A stretch of 22,527 nucleotides of DNA, taken from the NCBI GenBank assembly GCA_001940645.1, contig MDVS01000054.1, positions 1 through 22,527 on the forward strand, read 5' to 3'. The notes beneath the pieces are model-generated. The model was not told where the DNA came from, did no database searches, and saw nothing but the letters and a program-made list of their open reading frames with translations. Made by a program: the position numbers and the translations under genes. The stretch is from Candidatus Heimdallarchaeota archaeon LC_3. GTDB taxonomy: Archaea > Asgardarchaeota > Heimdallarchaeia > Hodarchaeales > LC-3. Below, piece by piece: positions 1 through 21,120 of the stretch; the first letter of the stretch is position 1; each line of letters begins with the position of its first letter.

Positions 1-1463
1 GTTTAATTGGTCCAATTTGGCTTATAGCTACTAGTACCGAATCGAGAACTTCTATTCGATATGGTTCTCGCTCACCCCAATATATTACTTTAGAATTAGG
101 TCATGTTTTAGAAAATTTACGCTTAACCTCATGGGGTAGAGATTTATCTTTACAAACGTTTGTTTCTCCCTCAGAAACACCTGATTGGTTAGAGATACTA
201 GGTGAAGAGCCTAAATTAGAGTTTATTGCAGGATTTACAAAATCTTCTAATCTCTTATCTGATAAATACAAGTTGACGTCAGGAAAATTATCTATATTGG
301 ATAATGATTCCTTTATTCATGATTATTCTATTGAAGAAACTATTAGACTTCGTTCATCAGTTCGAGATTATTTAGATAAAAATATCACTAAATCCGAAAT
401 TGAAACGTTTTTTAGACTATTTTTAGGAATTAATAATAAAAATAGGCAAGTAATTTTTCCTGGGTTTTCAAACAATTCACTTTTAGATTATACTATGTTT
501 GTTGGAGAAAAAATCACTGATATTAACCCTGGAGTGTATAATATTAATTCAAGTACTGGTTCATTTGTTTCTTTAGAAAACACTGATAAAATTCTTGATC
601 TTCAACAAGCTGGCCTTGATCAACAGTGGATTGGATCAGCCAGCTTTAGTATTACAATATCTTCGAAAAACATTCAGCTTACTGCTGATCGGTTGAGCAT
701 TCTTGAAGCAGGAGTTGCAGGTCAACGTTTCTATCATACCTGTACTCTTACTAATTTAGGAATGGTTGTTATAGGAGCGTTTTATGATAATCAAATTCAA
801 TCTCTTATTCAATCAACAGGCCAGCCTTTATATATTATTCCTATTGGCCCAGTGGAACGATCAATAATTGCTTTCCAATTAGAGAGTATTCCTATCACTT
901 TACGAACAATTGGTAACATTGCAGGAATTCTTGCAGTATTTCTATTCCTAATTATGGCAATATTTCATACTAATGCTGTTAAAACATTGTTTCATATCAA
1001 AAGTCAAAAAATTCATTATTTTTTTGCTTCTATGATCATTTTTTTTGTAGTAATTCATGTTTTCATATTAATCGGTTATTATTCTATTAGAACTGGTGAA
1101 TTTTCCCAAATTTTCGATATTTTAATCAAGGCTTTCTTACCCCCTCCTTTAGACTTCGAATTGGCTGAATCAGTTGGCCAATTCTTTGCACGAATGGCTC
1201 TTTGGATGTCAATTGCCTTAATCCTAATTATGCTACCATTGAAAGTATTAGAACGAATTAAACCAAAATTTCGAACTCTGACACACAATATTTTATTTAT
1301 AGTAATTATTGGATCAATCCTGGTGCATTCTTTTCTCAATTCAAACATCCTGAATAGATTCCAAGAGGAATACATTAGTTTAGTTATTATTGGTATGGGA
1401 ATTTGGTATCTGATTCATCAATATTCTAAAAAACAGACTGAAAATAAGAAAAGTATAGATTAG
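1..1463 (+). CDS. Tandem nitroreductase domains fused to a ferric-reductase-like bis-heme membrane domain (5' end outside window)
   Basis: The reading frame is open from base 3, so the gene starts upstream of the window; the TTG at 273 is internal. In order it shows the C-terminal half of one nitroreductase (SagB-like FMN) domain (bases 3-200, with YGSRSPQYITLELGHVLENL), a second complete nitroreductase domain (about 320-860, with the RLRSSVRDY substrate/FMN motif and a GVYNIN segment), and a C-terminal region with about five membrane helices (880-1430). Helices 2 and 4 each carry a His pair spaced H-x13-H (His codons at 1014 and 1056, and at 1284 and 1326). This is the heme-ligand pattern of the ferric reductase/NOX/MsrQ transmembrane family. 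I infer a membrane flavo-heme oxidoreductase moving electrons between an FMN domain and two b hemes. The substrate is unknown. Nitroreductase assignment is firm; the heme domain rests on helix and His spacing. Confidence 0.8.
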   Translation, partial: LIGPIWLIATSTESRTSIRYGSRSPQYITLELGHVLENLRLTSWGRDLSLQTFVSPSETPDWLEILGEEPKLEFIAGFTKSSNLLSDKYKLTSGKLSILDNDSFIHDYSIEETIRLRSSVRDYLDKNITKSEIETFFRLFLGINNKNRQVIFPGFSNNSLLDYTMFVGEKITDINPGVYNINSSTGSFVSLENTDKILDLQQAGLDQQWIGSASFSITISSKNIQLTADRLSILEAGVAGQRFYHTCTLTNLGMVVIGAFYDNQIQSLIQSTGQPLYIIPIGPVERSIIAFQLESIPITLRTIGNIAGILAVFLFLIMAIFHTNAVKTLFHIKSQKIHYFFASMIIFFVVIHVFILIGYYSIRTGEFSQIFDILIKAFLPPPLDFELAESVGQFFARMALWMSIALILIMLPLKVLERIKPKFRTLTHNILFIVIIGSILVHSFLNSNILNRFQEEYISLVIIGMGIWYLIHQYSKKQTENKKSID

Positions 1464-3175: not shown

Positions 3176-3228
3176 ATGCGTTTAGTTATTCATTATCATA
3201 GAAAAAAATATATTAGTTAGTATCAGGT

Positions 3229-3753
3229 TTATTGGTTATGTATTCTATATAAATTTCTTATTATATTTATTTGTCCTAAGTGATAAGCATCATGATGAAT
3301 CATCGTGAAAATGATCCTTTTTATCGACCATGAATCACCCCAATTCGTTTTTACTTTTTTTTCTAATTCATTATCAGATATTCCCTTAATGCTTTCCACC
3401 AATTTTTCTTGTATTTTTTTCGGATAATGCTTACTTTCTGGCCATTCAGGGCAATCTAACTCCTTCCATTGTAGTTTCGCTTCTCTGAATGCACATTCAT
3501 CATACATTAATTTACATTGAGCTATATGTAAAATTAAATATTCAATAGTTGATATCAGATCCAAATTTTGTTCTTCTATCCATCCATTTCCAAATCTATT
3601 CCAATTTTGAATAATATCTAATGTTCTTGAGGTTGAAGTCGGCATCCACTGGGCTTCTTCTTTTGTTAAGGTATCCAAGACCTCTAATAAATCTTGGTAT
3701 CCATGATTTAACTCCCAGATTACTGATAGAATAAAATTATTTGGATGATTCAT
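3229..3753 (-). CDS. DinB-family metal-binding four-helix-bundle protein
   Basis: 174 residues, the usual DinB length. The signature near the C-terminus, HHDAYHLGQI (residues 153-162), supplies the H154-x3-H158 pair, and H76 in LHIAQC is the likely third ligand of the DinB/YfiT metal site. Family members include thiol-dependent S-transferases and many proteins of unknown role; nothing here gives a substrate. A TATA-like element (GGTATTTAAG on the minus strand) lies about 45 bases upstream of the ATG, so the gene probably has its own promoter. Its 3' end is duplicated at 4564-4737 downstream of the Uma2 gene. The family call is firm; the function is open. Confidence 0.8.
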   Translation of the reverse strand: MNHPNNFILSVIWELNHGYQDLLEVLDTLTKEEAQWMPTSTSRTLDIIQNWNRFGNGWIEEQNLDLISTIEYLILHIAQCKLMYDECAFREAKLQWKELDCPEWPESKHYPKKIQEKLVESIKGISDNELEKKVKTNWGDSWSIKRIIFTMIHHDAYHLGQINIIRNLYRIHNQ

Positions 3754-4211: not shown

Positions 4212-4563
4212 AAATTATAATTCCTTAATGTTTTTTTTTTAAATTTCTTATTTATTTTGTTTACGAGCAAATTTTGAATAATATCCTTGAAGTTAGTAAG
4301 GATTTCTAAATCCTTGGGGATAAAATCAGATTAGGTTTTAGAAGTATTTCTTTGTTTAAATGAGGATGTTTGATTATGGAGAACTCTAACACAGCATTAA
4401 TTTTGATAAAACTATTGTATATTAATTTTCTGTTATTTTGGGTTATTCTTATTAGTTTGTGATTTAAATTATGAAACTTTTTCCAAGGAAAAAAAGTCGA
4501 CGTATCGAAAAAATCTTTAATAGGCGAATTTTACTAAAATAGCTGAAAATTTTAGTACAAGGT
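4212..4563. other. Intergenic stretch with alternating inverted repeats
   Basis: Apart from the T-tract this stretch contains three alternating arms: ATCCTT (4283-4288), AAGGAT (4298-4303) and ATCCTT (4310-4315). The second pair extends to a perfect 8-base arm (4298-4305 with 4308-4315). A 23-codon basic ORF starts at ATG 4471 (MKLFPRKKSRRIEK...) and ends at a TAG; there is too little to call it a gene. I see nothing else. Confidence 0.4.
4231..4240 (+). terminator. T-tract terminator after the small membrane protein gene
   Basis: Ten consecutive T residues lie 20 bases after the stop at 4211, consistent with T-rich archaeal intrinsic termination. There is no strong hairpin in front of it. 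Confidence 0.5.
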
Positions 4564-4737
4564 TTATTGGTTTTGTATTCTATATAAGTTTCTTATGGTA
4601 TATATTTGTCCTAAGTGATAAGCATCATGATGAATCATCATGAAAATGATCTTTTTTATTGGCCATGAATCTCCCCAATTCATTTTTACTTTTTTTTCTA
4701 TTTCCTTATCAGATATTCCCAAACTTTCAGAAAAATA
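4564..4737 (-). pseudogene. Truncated DinB 3'-end copy directly behind the Uma2 gene
   Basis: The minus strand encodes about 57 residues closely matching the last part of the DinB protein at 3229-3753, from ESLGISDKE through HHDAYHLGQI to the terminal NLYRIQNQ, with the stop codon in the same place. Non-coding bases around the stop also match. The N-terminal two thirds, including the first metal-ligand His, are absent. The fragment begins right after the TAG of the Uma2 gene and is in the same frame as it. It is therefore a partial duplication or the remnant of a second DinB gene overwritten by the Uma2 gene. It has no start of its own. Confidence 0.75.
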
Positions 4738-5355
4738 CTATAAATCGCTTATTTTTGGGAATTCTTTCAACCATTTTAAATTAATTTTCATTTCCGGGAA
4801 TCTTTTTGGGGCTATTTCTCCCTTTTCGATTGATTCTGATGAATATTTATTATTATTACCTAATAAATATCTCAACAGTTTAGGGGGATCTTGATAGATA
4901 TACCAAATTTCTTGAATTTTTGCATCCTGATACCATGAAAGTTTTTCACCAAGATCATGGGATTCTGTTCCTTTAGAAACAATTTCAATAATCCATTCTG
5001 GGTTTCCAACATAAATAGCATCATTATCTATGCTAAATGAGTTTGGTAAAAAATATATCAAATCTGGTTCCGGTCGATGACCATTATTAGGTAGTAAGAT
5101 TGCGATACGAGATCCTAGTAATTCTCCTAGATCTTTTTTTTCTAAATAATCATTAATAAATCGGTGCAGAAAACTAAAAATTTTTTCATGCTTAATCGAA
5201 GCTGGTGAATGAATAAATAAACAACCCTGAGAATACTCCACTTTTAGATCTTCGGAGCTAAATTCCCAGTACTCTTTCTCTGTCAAACCTTTTAAGATAA
5301 GAATATAATCTTCAGGAGGAATCCAAGTTTTATTATCTAAATTGATAGTTATCAT
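4738..5355 (-). CDS. Uma2-family (DUF820) PD-(D/E)xK nuclease-fold protein
   Basis: 205 residues, normal length for Uma2. The recognisable core is an early E40 in KVEYSQG, the RPEPDLIYF strand (D98) and the PEWIIEIVSKGT strand (E124), followed by a conserved D/K helix segment (HDLGEKLSWY, K138) and EIWYIY. These are the positions of the restriction-endonuclease-like active site. Uma2 proteins are abundant in cyanobacteria and scattered in archaea; their biological role is unsettled, and many are thought to be linked to mobile elements. Start ATG 5355 follows a TATA-like ATTTATAAAT about 50 bases upstream on the minus strand. The C-terminus abuts the DinB remnant, suggesting arrival by rearrangement. 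Confidence 0.85.
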   Translation of the reverse strand: MITINLDNKTWIPPEDYILILKGLTEKEYWEFSSEDLKVEYSQGCLFIHSPASIKHEKIFSFLHRFINDYLEKKDLGELLGSRIAILLPNNGHRPEPDLIYFLPNSFSIDNDAIYVGNPEWIIEIVSKGTESHDLGEKLSWYQDAKIQEIWYIYQDPPKLLRYLLGNNNKYSSESIEKGEIAPKRFPEMKINLKWLKEFPKISDL

Positions 5356-7501: not shown

Positions 7502-8103
7502 GACTCCCTACTTTTTGAAAAATTAATTAAATTTTTAAAAAAAAAATAACTAAAAAGAAACATTCTTAAAATAAGGTCAGATTTGATAATGAATTATTCT
7601 GAAGAAATTAATAATCAATATGATAGACTCAAACTGTTGGTCTAGATACTGGATGAACTTATTGTTAAAGAACATGGTAATTATTTATTAGATACTTAAA
7701 ATATAAATGAAAAAATTTTATTAGTCAACTCTTTTCCATAAGGAATTACAGTATTTGTTGGAGTCTAAATAAGGAAAAAACGAGCAAATGAAGGATAGTG
7801 ATCGACTGAAGAAAAATACCTTATAAACGATTTTTTATATTTCGTATTAATATTATTTCTAGAAGCATCTCGCCAAATTTACTGTATGAGAAGTAGTATG
7901 TCTTCTGCGGCTTGTCATGAAACTGTAAAATTTCCATTTTGCTTGTCTATAATACCATATATAGCCGATAACAGATAGCCATATTTAACCAATGCCATTT
8001 ACAACCACATCAAGAAGTAACCCGTTTACAAAATCTAAATCACGCGAGTCTTTTGTCTAGTGAGTAACAAGAGAAAAACTGGTTAAATGCCTAAATCTTT
8101 CTT
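7502..8103. other. Long non-coding stretch before histone copy 1
   Basis: About 600 bases without an intact gene. Besides the possible remnant near 7.6 kb there is a Cys-containing frame around 7890-7970 (SSAACHETVKFPFCL) that is soon closed by stops. I see no tRNA, repeat array or convincing RNA element. Confidence 0.4.
7589..7768 (+). pseudogene. Possible decayed small gene with in-frame stops
   Basis: Reading from ATG 7589 gives coding-like text (MNYSEEINNQYDRLKLLV, then ILDELIVKEHGNYLLDT, NINEKILLVNSFP, GITVFVGV) in one frame, interrupted by TAG and two TAA codons. Composition and frame persistence suggest a degraded gene. No family is recognised, and chance cannot be excluded. Confidence 0.3.
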
Positions 8104-8127
8104 GATGAGAAAATAAAAATTATCACA

Positions 8128-8141
8128 ATGTTTAAAAAACG
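8128..8141 (+). promoter_or_regulatory. TATA box of histone gene copy 1
   Basis: ATGTTTAAAAAACG aligns with ATATTTAAAAGACG in copy 2. Normal archaeal spacing puts the transcription start near 8159, immediately before the leader hairpin. Confidence 0.5.
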
Positions 8142-8160
8142 TAATAGTTATTTCATGTTT

Positions 8161-8188
8161 AGTCCAATAAAAAATCTATTGGCGGACT
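8161..8188 (+). ncRNA. Conserved 5'-leader hairpin of histone mRNA, copy 1
   Basis: AGTCC+AATA pairs with TATT+GGACT around the 7-base loop AAAAATC, with GGC bulged on the 3' side. In copy 2 the inner arm is GTTA/TAAT: one A-U pair has become U-A and one A-U has become G-U, so pairing is kept while the sequence changes. It would lie at the very 5' end of the transcript, about 60 bases before the GTG. A cis-acting mRNA element is inferred. Confidence 0.45.
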
Positions 8189-8248
8189 TATGAAGTCAAT
8201 CATTAGGTTAAATTGTTAGGACGAAAAAAACAATAAAAGTGATTAACC

Positions 8249-8524
8249 GTGTCAAAAAAAGGTAAAAAAGCAGCTCCAGCTGCAGCAAAATCAAGTCGAC
8301 GTAGATCTAGCCGATCTAAAGGACAAGCTTTCGCTTCTGCAAAAGTAGAGAAATTAATCCGTGAAGCCGGCGCTTTCCGTGTATCAAGTGGTGCAATTAA
8401 AGCACTGAACGATTTATTAGGTGAGCGTGGTCTCGAAGTGGCCAGATATTCAGTAGAAATTGCACGAAACAGCGGTCGTCGAACTATAAAAGAAACAGAC
8501 GTTGCTTTGTCTTCTTCCAAATAA
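8249..8524 (+). CDS. Archaeal histone with long basic N-terminal tail, copy 1
   Basis: 91 residues, against about 67 for classical archaeal histones. Residues 1-27 form a Lys/Arg/Ala/Ser tail (K3 K4 K6 K7 K14, RRR at 17-19, R22, K24). Residues 28-91 form the histone fold: alpha-1 VEKLIREAG, loop 1 AFRVSS, alpha-2 GAIKALNDLLGERGLEVARY through ARNSG, and loop 2 RRTIKETD with the R-T pair. Alpha-3 is short (VALSSSK) compared with the usual IELAVRRFKK type. It would wrap DNA as dimers and higher assemblies. The GTG start is supported by GTGA six bases upstream and by conservation in copy 2. Tailed histones are known from some Asgard archaea. Codon use is more GC-rich than in the neighbours, consistent with high expression. 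Confidence 0.95.
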   Translation: MSKKGKKAAPAAAKSSRRRSSRSKGQAFASAKVEKLIREAGAFRVSSGAIKALNDLLGERGLEVARYSVEIARNSGRRTIKETDVALSSSK

Positions 8525-8543
8525 AATAGTTTAACAAATTTGA

Positions 8544-8550
8544 TTTTTTT
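8544..8550 (+). terminator. T-tract after histone copy 1
   Basis: Seven T, followed by a second run at 8598-8605. Both are matched at equivalent places after copy 2, supporting T-rich termination. Confidence 0.45.
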
Positions 8551-8655
8551 CTTCGTAGTCGCTGTTTCAAAGACAAATTTACTTCTAAAATTAAAAATTT
8601 TTTTTCTCTTTTTTTCCAGTAATGAGCTTAATCACTGCAGTCGAATTCAGTGTGT

Positions 8656-8895
8656 AGTTAGTGGTTCAATTAAGATCGGTAAAAATATTATTGAAGTTGA
8701 AAAGGCGTTGTTCGAACTTGGTCATGTCTTAGAAAACTCAGAAATCATTATTGCTTAAGAAATCAAGAAAATTTTTTCAGAAACGGTGAGTTTACATCAA
8801 TACGGTAAAAGTCAATATTCTTTTAATTTGAGCTTTATTTTAGAAGTTATAACTGAGAGTTTATTGTCGATTGATGGGTATTTCTAAGTTATTAT
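8656..8895. other. Non-coding remainder between histone copy 1 and asnA
   Basis: Part of the segment that has no counterpart after histone copy 2. A plus-strand frame ending at 8758 reads KALFELGHVLENSEIIIA. Its ELGHVLEN string echoes the nitroreductase at the start of the window, but there is too little to call a remnant. Nothing else is recognised. Confidence 0.3.
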
Positions 8896-9969
8896 TTAAA
8901 GAAGTGAAATATTATATTTCTTACAAGTTTGAATCATACCTTCGGGCCATATTCCACATTGAATTTCTCCAATATGAGCTTTACGTAAGTAAAACATACA
9001 AAGTCGTGATTGTCCAATACCGCCCCCAATAGATAAAGGAAATTCGTCATTGAGTAATTTTTTATGCCAAAAAAGGTTTTCTCTATCTGTAGTTTTAGTT
9101 AATTCTAATTGTCGCCTTAAGGTAGTTTTATCAACTCTTATACCCATCGAAGATATTTCAAATGCGCGTTTTAATACTGGATTATAGATTAATATATCCC
9201 CATTAAGTCCTTTTTTACCATCTAGAGTAGGAGTTGACCAATCATCATAATCTGGTGCTCTTCCATCATGAATTGTTTCATCGGGTAATGTTCCTCCGAT
9301 TCCTATGAGGGAAACAGCCCCGTATTTTTCACAAATTGCGTTTTCCCGCTCTTGAGGTGATAAATTTGAGTATTGAGTGAGTAAATCTTCAGTATGGATA
9401 AACGTTATTTTTTCAGGTAAAACTGGGGTAATTTGAGGATAAAATTCACAAGTTTGTTGCTCTACAAATCGAATAGTATCGTAAATCTTTTGTACTATCA
9501 ATTTCAAGTAATCTAATGAACGTTGTTTGGTATTAATGACCAGTTCCCAATCCCATTGATCAACATAAATGCTATGAATGTTATCGAGGATTTCTTGAGC
9601 CCTAATTGCATCCATATCTGTATATAATCCTTGGTCCTGTTCAAAACCATATGATGCTAATGCCATTCGCTTCCATTTAGCTAATGAATGGACAATTTCA
9701 GCTTTTTTATTATTTACACCCGGAATGTTGAAAGAAACTGGCATTTCAATACCGTTTAAGTCATCATTAATACCAGTTTGAGCGAGGACAAATCTTGGTG
9801 CAGTAACTCTTGTGAGATTTAATTTTCTAGCAAAAGCTTTTTCAAAAGTATCTTTAATCTTCTTAATAGCAATTTCTGTATCTTGAACATCTAAATACGA
9901 TGAATAACCAACTGGAATAGTTAATCGATGATTTTTGTTATCGAATTTTATTGTATCCTTTATTTCCAT
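8896..9969 (-). CDS. asnA: Aspartate--ammonia ligase (asparagine synthetase A), bacterial type
   Basis: AsnA makes asparagine from aspartate, ammonia and ATP (via aspartyl-AMP) in the cytoplasm; it has a class II aminoacyl-tRNA-synthetase-like fold. The protein is about 357 residues from ATG 9969 (an in-frame TTG at 9978 is less likely), against about 330 in Escherichia coli. Highly conserved blocks are present in order: VHSLAKWKR, YVDQWDWE, VSLIGIGG, RAPDYDDWSTP, GLNGDILIYNPVL, FEISSMGIRVD and SIGGGIGQSRLCM. The match is to the bacterial enzyme, not to the archaeal AsnRS-derived paralog, so horizontal transfer is likely. The extra length is at the N-terminus. The gene is transcribed alone on the minus strand, within a segment that appears inserted into the duplicated histone flank. 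Confidence 0.95.
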   Translation of the reverse strand: MEIKDTIKFDNKNHRLTIPVGYSSYLDVQDTEIAIKKIKDTFEKAFARKLNLTRVTAPRFVLAQTGINDDLNGIEMPVSFNIPGVNNKKAEIVHSLAKWKRMALASYGFEQDQGLYTDMDAIRAQEILDNIHSIYVDQWDWELVINTKQRSLDYLKLIVQKIYDTIRFVEQQTCEFYPQITPVLPEKITFIHTEDLLTQYSNLSPQERENAICEKYGAVSLIGIGGTLPDETIHDGRAPDYDDWSTPTLDGKKGLNGDILIYNPVLKRAFEISSMGIRVDKTTLRRQLELTKTTDRENLFWHKKLLNDEFPLSIGGGIGQSRLCMFYLRKAHIGEIQCGIWPEGMIQTCKKYNISLL

Positions 9970-10180
9970 AAGTATCAATTTTCTTCGTCTTTTTTTGAAA
10001 TTGAAATTGTGCTTTTTTACGGACTTTAGAAACTTCTTGATAGGTAGGTAGTCTAAACTTTCACCGTGACTTCATTAAAAAATTCTACTGCAGAAGCATG
10101 GACAAGACAATATAATTTTAACTTATCTCAAATGAAAAAATTATAAGTATTAAATCTTAGATTTTTCAACACATTACAAA

Positions 10181-10999
10181 TTAAGTTGCATCTTTAACTT
10201 TTTTTGCAATTAAAACTAAATAATTTAGAGAACCATCTTGTATGAATTTTTCTCCTTCTCGAAGCCAATTTTTCACTTGTGAAAGACTAATGTTACCTAA
10301 ATTGATTTTTTTTGTCTTTGACACTAATTCAGCTACAAAAAGCATTTTTTTAAACCTTGAGAGCATTTCAATAAGAACGTCACTTTTGTGTTCTAATAAT
10401 TGAATTTTTAAACCAGATTTCTTAAAATATTGTGTATATCCTGTAGTTGAAAGTGCATTTGCTAAGCAAGCAACTTGAAAGATCATTTGTTCTATTTCGA
10501 AAGGTAATTTTTTCTCTATTACGATATCCGACACCCCAATACGACCATTATCTTTCAACACGCGATATATTTCTTGACTAACTGATATTTTATTTTGGAA
10601 AAGACAAAAAGAACATTCAATTATAACAACGTCAAAGGATTGATCTTTAAAAGACAATTGTTCTGCATTTCCAATCTTAAATTTTACACGATGATCTAAA
10701 TTTTCCTGTTTTGCTATTGTATTCGCTTTTATAACATTTTTATGGCTTAAGTCGATTCCTGTGACAGAAGATCCAAATTTTTTTGCTAAAAATATAGCTG
10801 TAGTACCTATCCCCGAAGCTAAATCCAGAATTTTATCTGAAGGTCTTAATCCAAGCTTTAATCCTAATTCTTTGGTTAATGCTAAACCTCCGGGATGAAA
10901 ACTAGGTCCTAAAAAGGTTTGGATATGTTTATTCTCATAAAAATTACAACACGCACTCGAAAAGTCTTGGTCACTTTTAAAAAACTCTAGACTAACCAT
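10181..10999 (-). CDS. Class I SAM-dependent methyltransferase, partner of the radical SAM gene
   Basis: 272 residues. The Rossmann core is clear: motif I ILDLASGIGTTAIFLA (57-72), the acidic end of beta-2 in VTGIDLS (D83), GNAEQLSFKDQSFD (110-123), and the post-motif strand DVVIIECSFCLFQ, then VLKDNGRIGVSD. The N-terminal FHPGGLALTKEL segment and two Cys pairs (C17-C18, C129/C132) are unusual for the UbiE-like group and recall methyltransferases with soft-metal or metalloid substrates; this is a hint only. The ATG lies two bases after the stop of the radical SAM gene, so the two are co-translated and probably act in one pathway. The substrate is unknown: lipid, arsenic compound or small molecule. 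Confidence 0.85.
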   Translation of the reverse strand: MVSLEFFKSDQDFSSACCNFYENKHIQTFLGPSFHPGGLALTKELGLKLGLRPSDKILDLASGIGTTAIFLAKKFGSSVTGIDLSHKNVIKANTIAKQENLDHRVKFKIGNAEQLSFKDQSFDVVIIECSFCLFQNKISVSQEIYRVLKDNGRIGVSDIVIEKKLPFEIEQMIFQVACLANALSTTGYTQYFKKSGLKIQLLEHKSDVLIEMLSRFKKMLFVAELVSKTKKINLGNISLSQVKNWLREGEKFIQDGSLNYLVLIAKKVKDAT

Positions 11000-11001
11000 C
11001 G

Positions 11002-12525
11002 TTATTCAACATTGAGTGGAATTATATTGATTCCTTTGTTCTCTTCTGAATTATTTCTGTATTCAAATTTCTTATTGTTATTGAAATACCGTTCATTATA
11101 TTTATCTCGATAAAGAATATTATATGCACAAAATGGAATTATTTTATTATCAGGTAATACTTCATGAACACAGCATTTCATTAAACGTTTGACATCAACA
11201 TCCCAAGCGCTCATAAAAGGTTTAATAGTAATCATTTTAACATGATCTATATACTCCCCAAGTTGTGCCCGAATGGATTCCAAATTTAAATCAATACCAC
11301 AGGCATTACAATAATCTTCTACAAGCTCGCGTGAACCAGCTGATGTAGAAAATGAAAATAAACCCTCTAAGGCATCTTTAATCGTTCCTGCTACATCGGG
11401 AGTTATGCTATTTTTGAAATAATCCAAATAATCTTCCACTTCAATAATTCGTTTTATTGTGGTGAATTCTCCCGTTTCCGGATCTTGATAAGAAAAAGTT
11501 ATCCCTGAACAATGAGGATATGGGCACGGAATTGGAAAAAAATCTGTTTTTCTATATAAATTATTTGTCTGCTCTTCAATTCGTTGTAAAATATCCGGTA
11601 ATGTTAAGTGATCCATCGGATCGTAATATTGCTCTAATCTTCCTTCTGCAAAAACCGGCTGTAGGGAGAGTCCATTGATACCAGGTGTTTTATGGATAAA
11701 ACGAATAATTTCCCCTATTTCATTATCATTAATCCCTTTCACAACAGTCATCGATAGGGTAATTTTAATACCTACAGATGAAAGATTTTTGATAGCATCG
11801 AGCTTTTCGCCGAGTAATTCCGAATTTCCTCTTAGAGTCTTATAAGTTGAGGAGTCAAACCCATCAAATTGAAGATAAACTCCATTTAGTCCAGCATTTT
11901 TGGCCTTTTCACAAAATTCTACACTTTTCGCAAACCTTCGCCCATTTGAATTTATCATTATTGTTTGAATATGGTCTGTATCCCTTGTAAACTTTATAAT
12001 CTCAATAATTTGAGGATGAATCGTAGGCTCACCTCCACTAATTTGAATTAGTTCTACCGTTCCCTCGGAACGAATCAATGTATTAACCATTCCTTTAATC
12101 GTTTCAAAATCAAGATGATTATGCTTCTGGGATATTCCAGAACTAGCAAAACAGACAGGACAATCATAATTACATGACTGAGTTATTTCTAGAATACCTA
12201 AACAAGTATGCTGTTGATGTGAAGAGCAGAGCCCACAATCAGAAGGGCATCCTTCTTTGACTTCTGTTTGAAACTCTAAAGGGAGTGTACCAGGCTTATT
12301 GAAACGCTCCCAATACCTATAATTCTCAAAATCAGACGATAGAAGAGCTTCAAACCAACCATGTTCCTGACAACGTTTCTTCATTATTACCTTATTATTT
12401 CTGATCAATATTTGAGCATCAATGCTCTTTTTACAGGTTGGACATACACTGCGTGTCAGGTTGTAAAAAATACTTTCTCGTTCTTGTTTCTGGTTGATAA
12501 TTTGTTCTTTTGCTAGTACTTCCAT
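11002..12525 (-). CDS. Tes-like (MJ0619-type) radical SAM enzyme with several Cys clusters
   Basis: 507 residues. The radical SAM motif is C118-x3-C122-x2-C125 (SCNYDCPVC), with GGEP at 164-167. N-terminal to it are C28-x2-C31 and C52 (RCQEHG), then C93, C97, C100 and C108 (CPSDCGLC). C-terminal pairs lie at C334/C339 and C406/C409, and there is a KCCVHEVLP..IIPFCAYN block (C451, C452, C466). This layout matches the tetraether lipid synthase (Tes/MJ0619) family, which joins lipid tails by C-C bond formation using auxiliary iron-sulfur clusters and a rubredoxin-like site. Paralogs of the family have other or unknown roles. The ATG at 12525 is preceded by AGGAAAG and a TTTTTAAAG TATA-like element. 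It forms an operon with the methyltransferase. The family call is strong; the exact reaction is not. Confidence 0.85.
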   Translation of the reverse strand: MEVLAKEQIINQKQERESIFYNLTRSVCPTCKKSIDAQILIRNNKVIMKKRCQEHGWFEALLSSDFENYRYWERFNKPGTLPLEFQTEVKEGCPSDCGLCSSHQQHTCLGILEITQSCNYDCPVCFASSGISQKHNHLDFETIKGMVNTLIRSEGTVELIQISGGEPTIHPQIIEIIKFTRDTDHIQTIMINSNGRRFAKSVEFCEKAKNAGLNGVYLQFDGFDSSTYKTLRGNSELLGEKLDAIKNLSSVGIKITLSMTVVKGINDNEIGEIIRFIHKTPGINGLSLQPVFAEGRLEQYYDPMDHLTLPDILQRIEEQTNNLYRKTDFFPIPCPYPHCSGITFSYQDPETGEFTTIKRIIEVEDYLDYFKNSITPDVAGTIKDALEGLFSFSTSAGSRELVEDYCNACGIDLNLESIRAQLGEYIDHVKMITIKPFMSAWDVDVKRLMKCCVHEVLPDNKIIPFCAYNILYRDKYNERYFNNNKKFEYRNNSEENKGINIIPLNVE

Positions 12526-12535
12526 TTATTCATCT

Positions 12536-13034
12536 TTCCTGCTTTAAAAAGATAATCGGTGTTATTTTCAGAGGCATATTAGTAAATCTAAATAATTAGA
12601 GTTGTGTGGAGGGAAATAACTTGAAACTATTAGAATAATCAATTAATATAGTTCATCTAACTTTTCCATTGTTCTTTTTTTATTGCTAAAATTTATTTTT
12701 CAGGAACTATTTTTTATTCTTTTGACATGAAATCGAATATTTCCGGATATTGATGCTTAAAAAACCTATTTACACTTTTTAAGTATTTGAATGGAAAAGT
12801 ATCCGTTATAATAATAGTTGGTAAGTAATTGATAATCGATATTTATTAAAGAGTTTTAATTTTAGTTGATGCAGAACGTTTCAAATCAATAAAACCATTG
12901 ATAGTAATAATATTGATATTTTTTTACCTACGATATCTAAAATAGAATTTGCATGTGAATATATATAAAATTATATTCGATCCAACATAAATTTTTATCT
13001 TGGTTATGTTTAGAAATAAGGACTACGAAATATT
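12536..13034. other. Non-coding stretch upstream of the radical SAM gene
   Basis: About 500 very AT-rich bases with no frame that reads as protein. Apart from the promoter of the minus-strand radical SAM gene (TATA-like 12542-12551), nothing is recognised. Confidence 0.4.
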
Positions 13035-13235
13035 TTAATTAATAGGCCTTCGTTTTTGAAAACAATCTCAGCAATAGACTTGTTTTCCTTGAGTTGGAAC
13101 AAAGAGCGATTCGTAATCATTTCTACAATCACAACAGGTTGTTTTATGTATTTCTCTTGGTCCTCTGTTAAATCTTCCTTCTTGATTTCCTTCGGATTCT
13201 CTATTTACTCTTTCGTTTCTACGCTTAAATAACAA
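13035..13235 (-). pseudogene. CxxC zinc-ribbon protein gene with an in-frame TGA
   Basis: The minus strand encodes a recognisable small zinc-ribbon protein: a polar Arg/Asn/Glu-rich N-terminus (RRNERVNRESEGNQEGRF), then GPREIHKTTCCDCRN, FVPTQGKQVYC, a TGA at 13068-13070, then DCFQKRRPIN and a TAA. It matches the common HKATCSDCGK...VYC+DCF family found in archaea and candidate-phyla bacteria, with the TGA at the usually basic residue inside the second CxxC. No ATG is present; the best start is TTG 13233-13235. The frame runs up to the left edge of the second histone block at 13239, so the duplication probably removed its promoter and start. Selenocysteine insertion is possible but less likely than decay. 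Confidence 0.65.
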
Positions 13236-13262
13236 ATCGATGAGAAAATAAAAATTATCACA

Positions 13263-13276
13263 ATATTTAAAAGACG
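13263..13276 (+). promoter_or_regulatory. TATA box of histone gene copy 2
   Basis: ATATTTAAAAGACG, aligned with the copy 1 element and closer to the archaeal consensus. The predicted transcription start is near 13293. Confidence 0.5.
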
Positions 13277-13296
13277 TAATAGTTTTTACATGTTTT

Positions 13297-13322
13297 GTCC
13301 GTTAAAAAAACTAATGGTGGAC
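13297..13322 (+). ncRNA. Conserved 5'-leader hairpin of histone mRNA, copy 2
   Basis: GTCC+GTTA pairs with TAAT+GGAC around a 7-base loop AAAAAAC, with GGT bulged. Same architecture, loop length and position as copy 1, with one compensatory change and one G-U change in the inner arm. Confidence 0.45.
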
Positions 13323-13383
13323 CTATAAGTCAATCCTATGGTTAAATTGTCAGGACAAAAAAAAACAATAAAAGTGATTAACC

Positions 13384-13659
13384 GTGTCAAAAAAAGGTAA
13401 AAAAGCAGCTCCAGCTGCAGCAAAATCAAGTCGACGTAGATCTAGCCGATCTAAAGGACAAGCTTTCGCTTCTGCAAAAGTAGAGAAATTAATCCGTGAA
13501 GCCGGCGCTTTCCGTGTATCAAGTGGTGCAATTAAAGCACTGAACGATTTATTAGGAGAGCGTGGTCTCGAAGTAGCCAGATATTCAGTAGAAATTGCAC
13601 GAAACAGCGGTCGTCGAACAATAAAAGAAACAGACGTTACTTTGTCTGCTTCCAAATAA
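13384..13659 (+). CDS. Archaeal histone with long basic N-terminal tail, copy 2
   Basis: 91 residues, differing from copy 1 only by A86T and S89A. At the nucleotide level the first 173 bases are identical, including all synonymous sites; the five differences all lie from 13557 on. Tail (1-27) and histone-fold features are as in copy 1: RVSS loop 1, RRTIKETD loop 2 and a short alpha-3 (VTLSASK). Both changes fall in or next to alpha-3, the part that in other histones contributes to dimer-dimer contacts, so the copies could differ in assembly; that is speculative. It has its own TATA box, leader hairpin and T-tract. The GTG start and GTGATTAACC upstream sequence are identical to copy 1. Confidence 0.95.
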   Translation: MSKKGKKAAPAAAKSSRRRSSRSKGQAFASAKVEKLIREAGAFRVSSGAIKALNDLLGERGLEVARYSVEIARNSGRRTIKETDVTLSASK

Positions 13660-13677
13660 AATAGCTTGACTTTTAAA

Positions 13678-13684
13678 TTTTTTT
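13678..13684 (+). terminator. T-tract after histone copy 2
   Basis: Seven T, with a second run of seven at 13733-13739, matching the pair of runs after copy 1. Confidence 0.45.
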
Positions 13685-13850
13685 CTTCGTAGTCGCTGTT
13701 TCAAAAATAAATCTTCTTCTTAAATTTCAAAATTTTTTTCTCCTTTATTCCATTACTGAGCTTAATCACTACGGTCAAATTCAGGGTGTTGTTATTTTTT
13801 TAACGGATTTTAGTAACTTCTTGATATGTTGATCTAATAAAACTGGTTTA

Positions 13851-20409: not shown

Positions 20410-20811
20410 TCACTTGCTTATCTTTAATACTAATTCGTCAGGGGTTAAATAGTGATCTTTTCCCATCCAAGTAAAATGTTTAATATTGTATGTTATCAAA
20501 ATATTTTGGGTTAATAAGGCCTGAGTTCCTATTATAAAATCTCTAGCATGATGTTTAAACGGTAATGTCGATGATTTTGCATTAGTACTAATATCATAAA
20601 TCTCCTTGGTTGTTAAATTTTGAATTTTTATGTTTAGAGCTTGTAAATCTTTATTAAATAATTCCTGACTTATTCCTTTAATATTATACCAATGATATGT
20701 TTCCAATGCAGTTATTATTGATAATGAAATTGTAACTTCTTTGTGATGTTCTTGTAACCAATCTATAAAGTCTTGATCAGAAAAAACATTGCTATCAAGA
20801 CTGATTTTCAT
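20410..20811 (-). CDS. PIN-domain ribonuclease toxin (VapC-like)
   Basis: 133 residues, typical for VapC. Acidic metal-site residues are D6 (LDSNVF), E37 (TALETY) and D91 (ARDFIIGTQAL), with the C-terminal strand ILITYNIKHF in the place of the usual T-x-N-x-x-D-F, so the fourth acid is replaced by His112, as in some active PIN proteins. PIN toxins cleave RNA, often tRNA or rRNA, and are held in check by a cognate antitoxin. Its ATG lies within the end of the upstream antitoxin gene (17-base overlap), the standard coupling of such modules. The RNA target is unknown. Confidence 0.85.
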   Translation of the reverse strand: MKISLDSNVFSDQDFIDWLQEHHKEVTISLSIITALETYHWYNIKGISQELFNKDLQALNIKIQNLTTKEIYDISTNAKSSTLPFKHHARDFIIGTQALLTQNILITYNIKHFTWMGKDHYLTPDELVLKISK

Positions 20812-21094
20812 CTATGATCCCCCATGAGCTTATTCTCATTTCATCAATTGTAGGGCCAGGTTTACTCAATGCGTTTCGTATAGTTTTTCTCCATTTAATA
20901 TTCTTTCTTTTTAAATACGAGTCTCTTATGAGTTTTCTTGCTTCTGGGATCGGTATATAGTTTTTCACAAAGAAATTTATTTCAAATTGGTCAATAGCTT
21001 TAGCTACAACTTCTCCTTGGGTAGTATCTAATTCAGCAGCTATTTTCTTAATTTTGCGTCGTAATTTATCATTGACAGTTATAGATGATGGCAT
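20795..21094 (-). CDS. Ribbon-helix-helix antitoxin (VapB-like)
   Basis: 99 residues from ATG 21094. The N-terminus is a ribbon-helix-helix domain (SSITVNDKLRRKIKKIAAEL, then TTQGEVVAKAIDQF), which binds its own promoter as a dimer; the C-terminal half (about 55-99, ending ISSWGI) would wrap the toxin. An ATG at 21109 would give 104 residues, but the TATA-like box at 21121-21131 predicts a transcription start near 21100, downstream of that codon, so 21094 is preferred. It overlaps the PIN gene by 17 bases. Confidence 0.8.
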   Translation of the reverse strand: MPSSITVNDKLRRKIKKIAAELDTTQGEVVAKAIDQFEINFFVKNYIPIPEARKLIRDSYLKRKNIKWRKTIRNALSKPGPTIDEMRISSWGIIDENQS

Positions 21095-21120
21095 TATACC
21101 CAATATCATAATAATGTTTA

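Follow-up and report, generated by a model that had tools for sequence, protein, structure and literature searches.

The 22,527-nucleotide stretch analysed here (contig MDVS01000054.1 of Candidatus Heimdallarchaeota archaeon LC_3; in the following the window) carries two near-identical genes for a histone with a basic N-terminal tail. With good confidence these can be taken as two copies of a single DNA-wrapping archaeal histone, of the tailed type described as HA in LC_3, which would raise the dose of the protein and which arose by duplication, probably with later conversion. Both genes lie on the forward strand (8249-8524 and 13384-13659), start with GTG and encode 91 amino acids; both open reading frames (ORFs) are preceded by a TGA that lies in frame three codons before the start. 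The genes differ at 5 of 276 nucleotides, and the only resulting changes in the protein are A86T and S89A in copy 2. In these points a preliminary description of the window, which had reported two near-identical histones with exactly these two differences, was borne out.

Histone fold and known counterparts

Both proteins match the Pfam family CBFD_NFYB_HMF (E values of 6.2e-07 and 7.5e-07; 29.8-30 bits, cut-off 21.4) and have a histone fold of about 65 residues, as is characteristic of archaeal nucleosomal histones of the hypernucleosome type. With the Pfam family Histone (PF00125) they score 25.7-25.8 bits, below the cut-off of 26.4, and thus do not qualify as eukaryotic core histones. The nucleosomal motifs given in PMC13260811 (L1 'RV', L2 'RKT', the R-D clamp and the loop glycine) are present as R44 V45, R77 R78 T79, D84 and G41, with R instead of K in the second position of the L2 motif ('RKT'-like). 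In the AlphaFold2 model helices span residues 30-39, 47-74 and 82-90, and the confidence of the N-terminal part is low (mean predicted local distance difference test score, pLDDT, 49 for residues 1-20 and 66 for residues 21-30, with residues 5-15 below 50). The model aligns with HMfB up to HMfB residue 66 and its C-terminal end is level with that of HHoB (PDB 9qv5). The histone fold named in the preliminary description is supported, as one of the archaeal kind. The same description had called helix alpha-3 shortened. This is correct inasmuch as alpha-3 is about three residues shorter than in HMfB, but the claim was overstated: HHoB has the same end, and in the model alignment the helix (82-90) is not clearly shorter than that of HMfB.

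HMfA and HMfB of Methanothermus fervidus share the histone fold with the window proteins but have no tail; the C-terminus of HMfB extends about three residues further, and its H49 and K30-E61 contact, as given in PMC6136690, are absent from the window histones, the contact because residue 30 (HMfB numbering) is D in both copies. HHoB (PDB 9qv5, 9qv6 and 9qv7) shares the fold and ends at the same place, the model alignment giving 52% identity, but is a chain of 68-71 residues without a long tail, has H at position 49 and differs in other stacking residues. Two tailed histones of Heimdallarchaeota LC_3 were described by Henneman et al. (2018; PMC6136690), who modelled one of them, HA (OLS22332.1), with R17-R19 at the DNA gyres, and listed E14-R48, K26-E57, R41-E45 and N at the position of H49. 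The window proteins have 8/8 of the published HA features (RRR at 17-19, E14, K26, R41, E45, R48, N49 and E57), matched as described and not by sequence, and share with HA a basic tail of H4-like length. Among 108 proteins checked, the full set recurs only in P0003; its two further carriers, P0001 and P0026, are the window's own protein again. The numbering is supported by the 9qv5 core, for which the same mapping gives the residues reported for LC_3 HB, and HHoB is presumably LC_3 HB. The statement in the preliminary description that tailed histones are known from Asgard lineages agrees with the account of HA, and tailed Asgard histones are also noted in PMC10919886, PMC11390915, PMC12993045 and PMC13260811. 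Judged by the HA features, the tailed-histone type, the tail arginines and possible modification are already covered by published descriptions, and the window would probably belong to LC_3 or a close relative.

Long ORFs run antisense to both histone genes (8203-8520, 105 amino acids, and 13350-13655, 101 amino acids, reverse strand); they are most likely a by-product of the sense codons.

Origin of the pair and identity between the copies

The local alignment of the two loci extends over about 580 bp, at a copy spacing of 5135, and covers the gene and both flanks. The histone pair, flanks included, is the result of a duplication and not of chance. The upstream regions (8083-8248 and 13225-13383, forward strand) are identical in 140 of 158 ungapped columns, with 9 gap columns, and contain TTTAAA at 8131 (TATA-like by eye only) and at 13266; the downstream regions on the same strand (8525-8660, T-rich, and 13660-13794) are identical in 113 of 133 ungapped columns, with 5 gap columns. 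The flanks thus differ by 11-15%, while 271 of 276 positions are identical in the gene. A stretch of 198 nucleotides (8224-8421 and 13359-13556, forward strand, again at a spacing of 5135), comprising 25 nucleotides upstream, codons 1-57 and part of codon 58, is free of differences. No synonymous difference was found in the approximately 43 sites of codons 1-57, as opposed to 3 in the approximately 27 sites of codons 58-91 (Fisher p = 0.053). In random draws that scattered 41 mismatches among 361 neutral-like sites, 0.5% contained an unbroken run of this length.

The likeliest reason for this pattern, as far as the sequences tell, would be gene conversion over the tail and the first helix. According to PMC7776873, gene conversion is unsupported among Methanobacteriales histones. 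The conversion pattern may be new, as may, in a modest way, the counts on tail conservation and the comparison with eukaryotic tails. Alternatively, the duplication could be recent and the coding part held by codon or protein constraint while the flanks diverged freely, without any conversion. Constraint on synonymous sites is common in genes with high expression, and the contrast inside the gene is weak. However, the identical run starts 25 nucleotides upstream of the start codon and ends within the gene, and codons 58-91 diverge like the flanks, so we consider constraint alone a tenable but less probable explanation.

If the pair represents duplicated and converted copies of one histone, the proteins would form homodimers and, equally, a mixed dimer, binding DNA through the L1-L2 and alpha-1 surfaces, and stacking of the dimers would give a loose hypernucleosome. 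The tail, disordered and basic, most likely passes out between the DNA gyres; RRR17-19 would then lie at the minor groove, and the tail lysines could bind DNA in cis or in trans. The duplication of about 580 bp would have made the pair, conversion would have kept the 5' two thirds identical, and the two genes would supply more of one protein. If conversion between the copies did take place, it suggests that the pair serves the dosage of a single protein rather than providing two variants.

Several points weigh against this picture. Constraint near the start of a gene could itself lower synonymous change and mimic conversion, the contrast within the gene has a p value of only 0.053, and the estimate from random draws treats the flank rate as neutral. 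The match to HA rests on the features listed in the paper and not on the LC_3 sequence. In HA the contact between dimers may be weakened by N in place of H49 (PMC6136690), so that true hypernucleosomes may be short. Finally, two neighbours of the histone genes, AsnA (8896-9978) and an acyl-CoA synthetase, had no match in 58 genomes of the class searched (E <= 1e-30 and E <= 1e-150, respectively; no positive control); the thresholds were strict, and both results decide nothing on placement.

The tail, its relatives and its possible roles

The tail (residues 1-27; 8249-8329 and 13384-13464, forward strand, 81 of 81 nucleotides identical) contains 6 K, 4 R and 6 S and lacks acidic residues. The basic residues K3, K4, K6, K7, K14, R17-19, R22 and K24 are present as given in the preliminary description. 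After the start, the next ATG, GTG or TTG in frame comes within the fold, at codon 64 (copy 1) or codon 87 (copy 2); any working histone translated from a common start codon therefore includes the tail, which is very likely made as part of the protein. Accidental read-through of an AT-rich upstream stretch is discussed in PMC10919886 as a route to Lys-rich tails. The DNA of the tail has a GC content of 43% (7% at third codon positions), compared with 30% for the whole window, and on this ground it would seem unlike such a stretch.

The preliminary description had named non-conservation of the first 27 codons among homologs as evidence against its reading, an outcome that did not appear. The first protein search yielded 25 proteins at E <= 1e-3 out of 39 candidates, and 24 of them have basic tails, between 13 and 43 residues long and with net charges from +6 to +11, the only one without being P0024; P0001 is the window's own protein. 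The start MS[KR]K was found in 23 of the 25 and the box R[RK][ST]SRS in 21. In a class of 28 rows picked by pattern the corresponding counts are 26/28 and 23/28, which are partly circular because of that choice; the counts from the first search are fairer, yet that search ranks by whole-protein likeness. These observations indicate that one class of histones has the tail as a genuine and conserved component. A profile search found 540 proteins at E <= 1e-10 of 7991 scored, of which the best 120 are listed.

In a tree built from the fold only (107 rows, 64 columns; rows longer than 112 amino acids, P0001, P0025, P0026 and rows without the anchor motif left out), the 28 rows with the window's tail type, both window proteins included, group together (support 81, not starred). 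They adjoin tailless histones, apart from the other tailed Asgard histones, which likewise have a basic tail (MAKKK... or MPKKK...) ahead of an archaeal histone fold but whose tails are rich in K, A and P and lack the box. Separate origins of these two tail types are plausible from the tree, in which 54 of 98 inner branches are drawn open. The tail labels were assigned by patterns and in a few cases mislead: P0047 and P0056, tagged RSSR, have a different tail and fall elsewhere, and P0083 (KAP label) resembles upstream read-through. Tailed and tailless states require four changes on the tree, gain and loss being indistinguishable.

Relatives are encoded at 15 reference-genome loci, all in records named Hodarchaeota, Hodarchaeum or Heimdallarchaeota, with identities of up to 64%. 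With E <= 1e-20 as the limit, 8 of the 58 genomes of the class gave a match, at identities of up to 61%. Among 227 Asgard genomes there were 7 matches in 5 genomes at E <= 1e-28, starting at profile positions 10-19; none of these 7 shows the window's type of tail, and when the DNA of the fetched loci was scanned by pattern, no locus had the box ahead of a histone fold. The MAKKK/MPKKK type is present in Hodarchaeota genomes. Carriage of the tailed histone by viruses was considered and dropped, as none of the 14 stretches of viral contigs that fit a pattern encodes a relative.

The tail could be a signalling platform, in which acetylation of Lys or phosphorylation of Ser, read by other proteins, would regulate chromatin as in eukaryotes. 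Lys and Ser are conserved in the tail, and GNAT proteins and a YEATS reader are reported for LC_3 in PMC6136690. However, a limited literature search met no modification data for Asgard histones, and YEATS was detected in 2 of the 58 genomes of the class (G011 and G014). It was found in 0 of 9 genomes of another set, several of which have the other tail type, and in 0 of 14 control genomes, so that the sensitivity of the search rests on the two hits. Taken together, a signalling role appears doubtful. We regard as a long shot the wider proposal that tails with R[RK][ST]SRS form a distinct Asgard class of single origin, in which the Ser-Arg box adjoining the fold acts as a switch, conserved and open to modification, that grips DNA, while gene conversion holds the tail identical between the copies.

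Improbable, too, is that the two copies are specialised variants, in which A86T and S89A alter how dimers stack, a possibility raised in the preliminary description, and chromatin differs between homo- and heterodimers. Both changes are within alpha-3, residues 86 and 89 correspond to HMfB positions 61 and 64, the former being a partner in the K30-E61 stacking contact (PMC6136690), and the frame is intact in both copies. Against this, the A/T and S/A exchanges leave the charge unchanged, the equivalent of HMfB position 30 is D in both copies, the rest of the proteins is identical, and among the 25 proteins of the first search, all but one of which could be read at position 86, this position is occupied by V, I, L, T or K. 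The idea of a special stacking of the two copies was therefore dropped, and the two exchanges look like drift.

The preliminary description had also called the tail eukaryote-like, and by eye the likeness to the RSSR box of H2A and the KKR box of H2B is striking. Common descent with the proximal tail of H2A or H2B in eukaryotes is nevertheless highly improbable. The comparison was made by permutation with shuffled tails for 15 distinct segments, in 28 comparisons and in a test against H2A in register, with the eukaryotic sequences entered by hand. For the window tail p was 0.48 over the 28 comparisons and 0.58 for H2A in register, so that no significant class-specific likeness to H2A, H2B, H3 or H4 was found. 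Over all 15 segments p lay between 0.006 and 0.58 in the 28 comparisons and between 0.026 and 0.89 in the register test; P0012 (0.006, H2B) and P0030 (0.026, H2A) were below 0.05 over the 28 comparisons and the other 13 above it. In favour of homology, RSSR of the majority form KKRRSSRSK-xTF aligns without gaps with RSSR of H2A, 6 of the 15 segments gave p values of 0.026-0.063 in register, and the match of the histone profile reaches the tail regions of an H2B-H2A fusion chain (E 0.0004) as well as those of separate H4, H2B and H2A chains (E 0.003 or weaker). On the other hand, the tail class adjoins tailless Asgard histones on the tree, and PMC10919886 states that there is no discernible homology between Asgard and eukaryotic tails. 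Homology was dropped after the permutation tests despite the few relatives with low p values, and the likeness to H2A and H2B is taken as probable convergence on a basic, Ser-rich sequence. The Asgard tail thus resembles eukaryotic tails in charge, not demonstrably in descent, which bears on the origin of eukaryotic chromatin.

Neighbouring genes in the window

The AsnA gene between the histone copies, on the reverse strand, encodes a protein with a strong match to aspartate-ammonia ligase (Pfam E 4.5e-100) and was perhaps acquired from elsewhere. A radical SAM protein with an HMPTM zinc ribbon (Pfam) is encoded at 11002-12525 on the same strand; its family presumably includes tetraether-lipid enzymes. 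Searched at E <= 1e-50, it matched in 93 of the 227 Asgard genomes, with 61% identity to G002 (the genome of L002, Heimdallarchaeota MAG_8); none of the other matches listed exceeded 43%. This result fits a placement of the window in Hodarchaeales.

A direct repeat of 169 nucleotides (3217-3385 and 4552-4720; 91% alike) contains the end of a DinB_2 gene (3229-3753, reverse strand), which recurs as a fragment ORF (4564-4722, reverse strand) adjoining a Uma2-family gene (4738-5355, reverse strand). Two overlapping small genes (20410-20811 and 20795-21109, reverse strand) have a toxin-antitoxin-like layout, the first protein being PIN-like by eye, and their products had no Pfam match at E <= 0.001. 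The gene at 273-1463 (forward strand) encodes a single protein with a Nitroreductase domain (Pfam) followed by a stretch that is membrane-like by eye.
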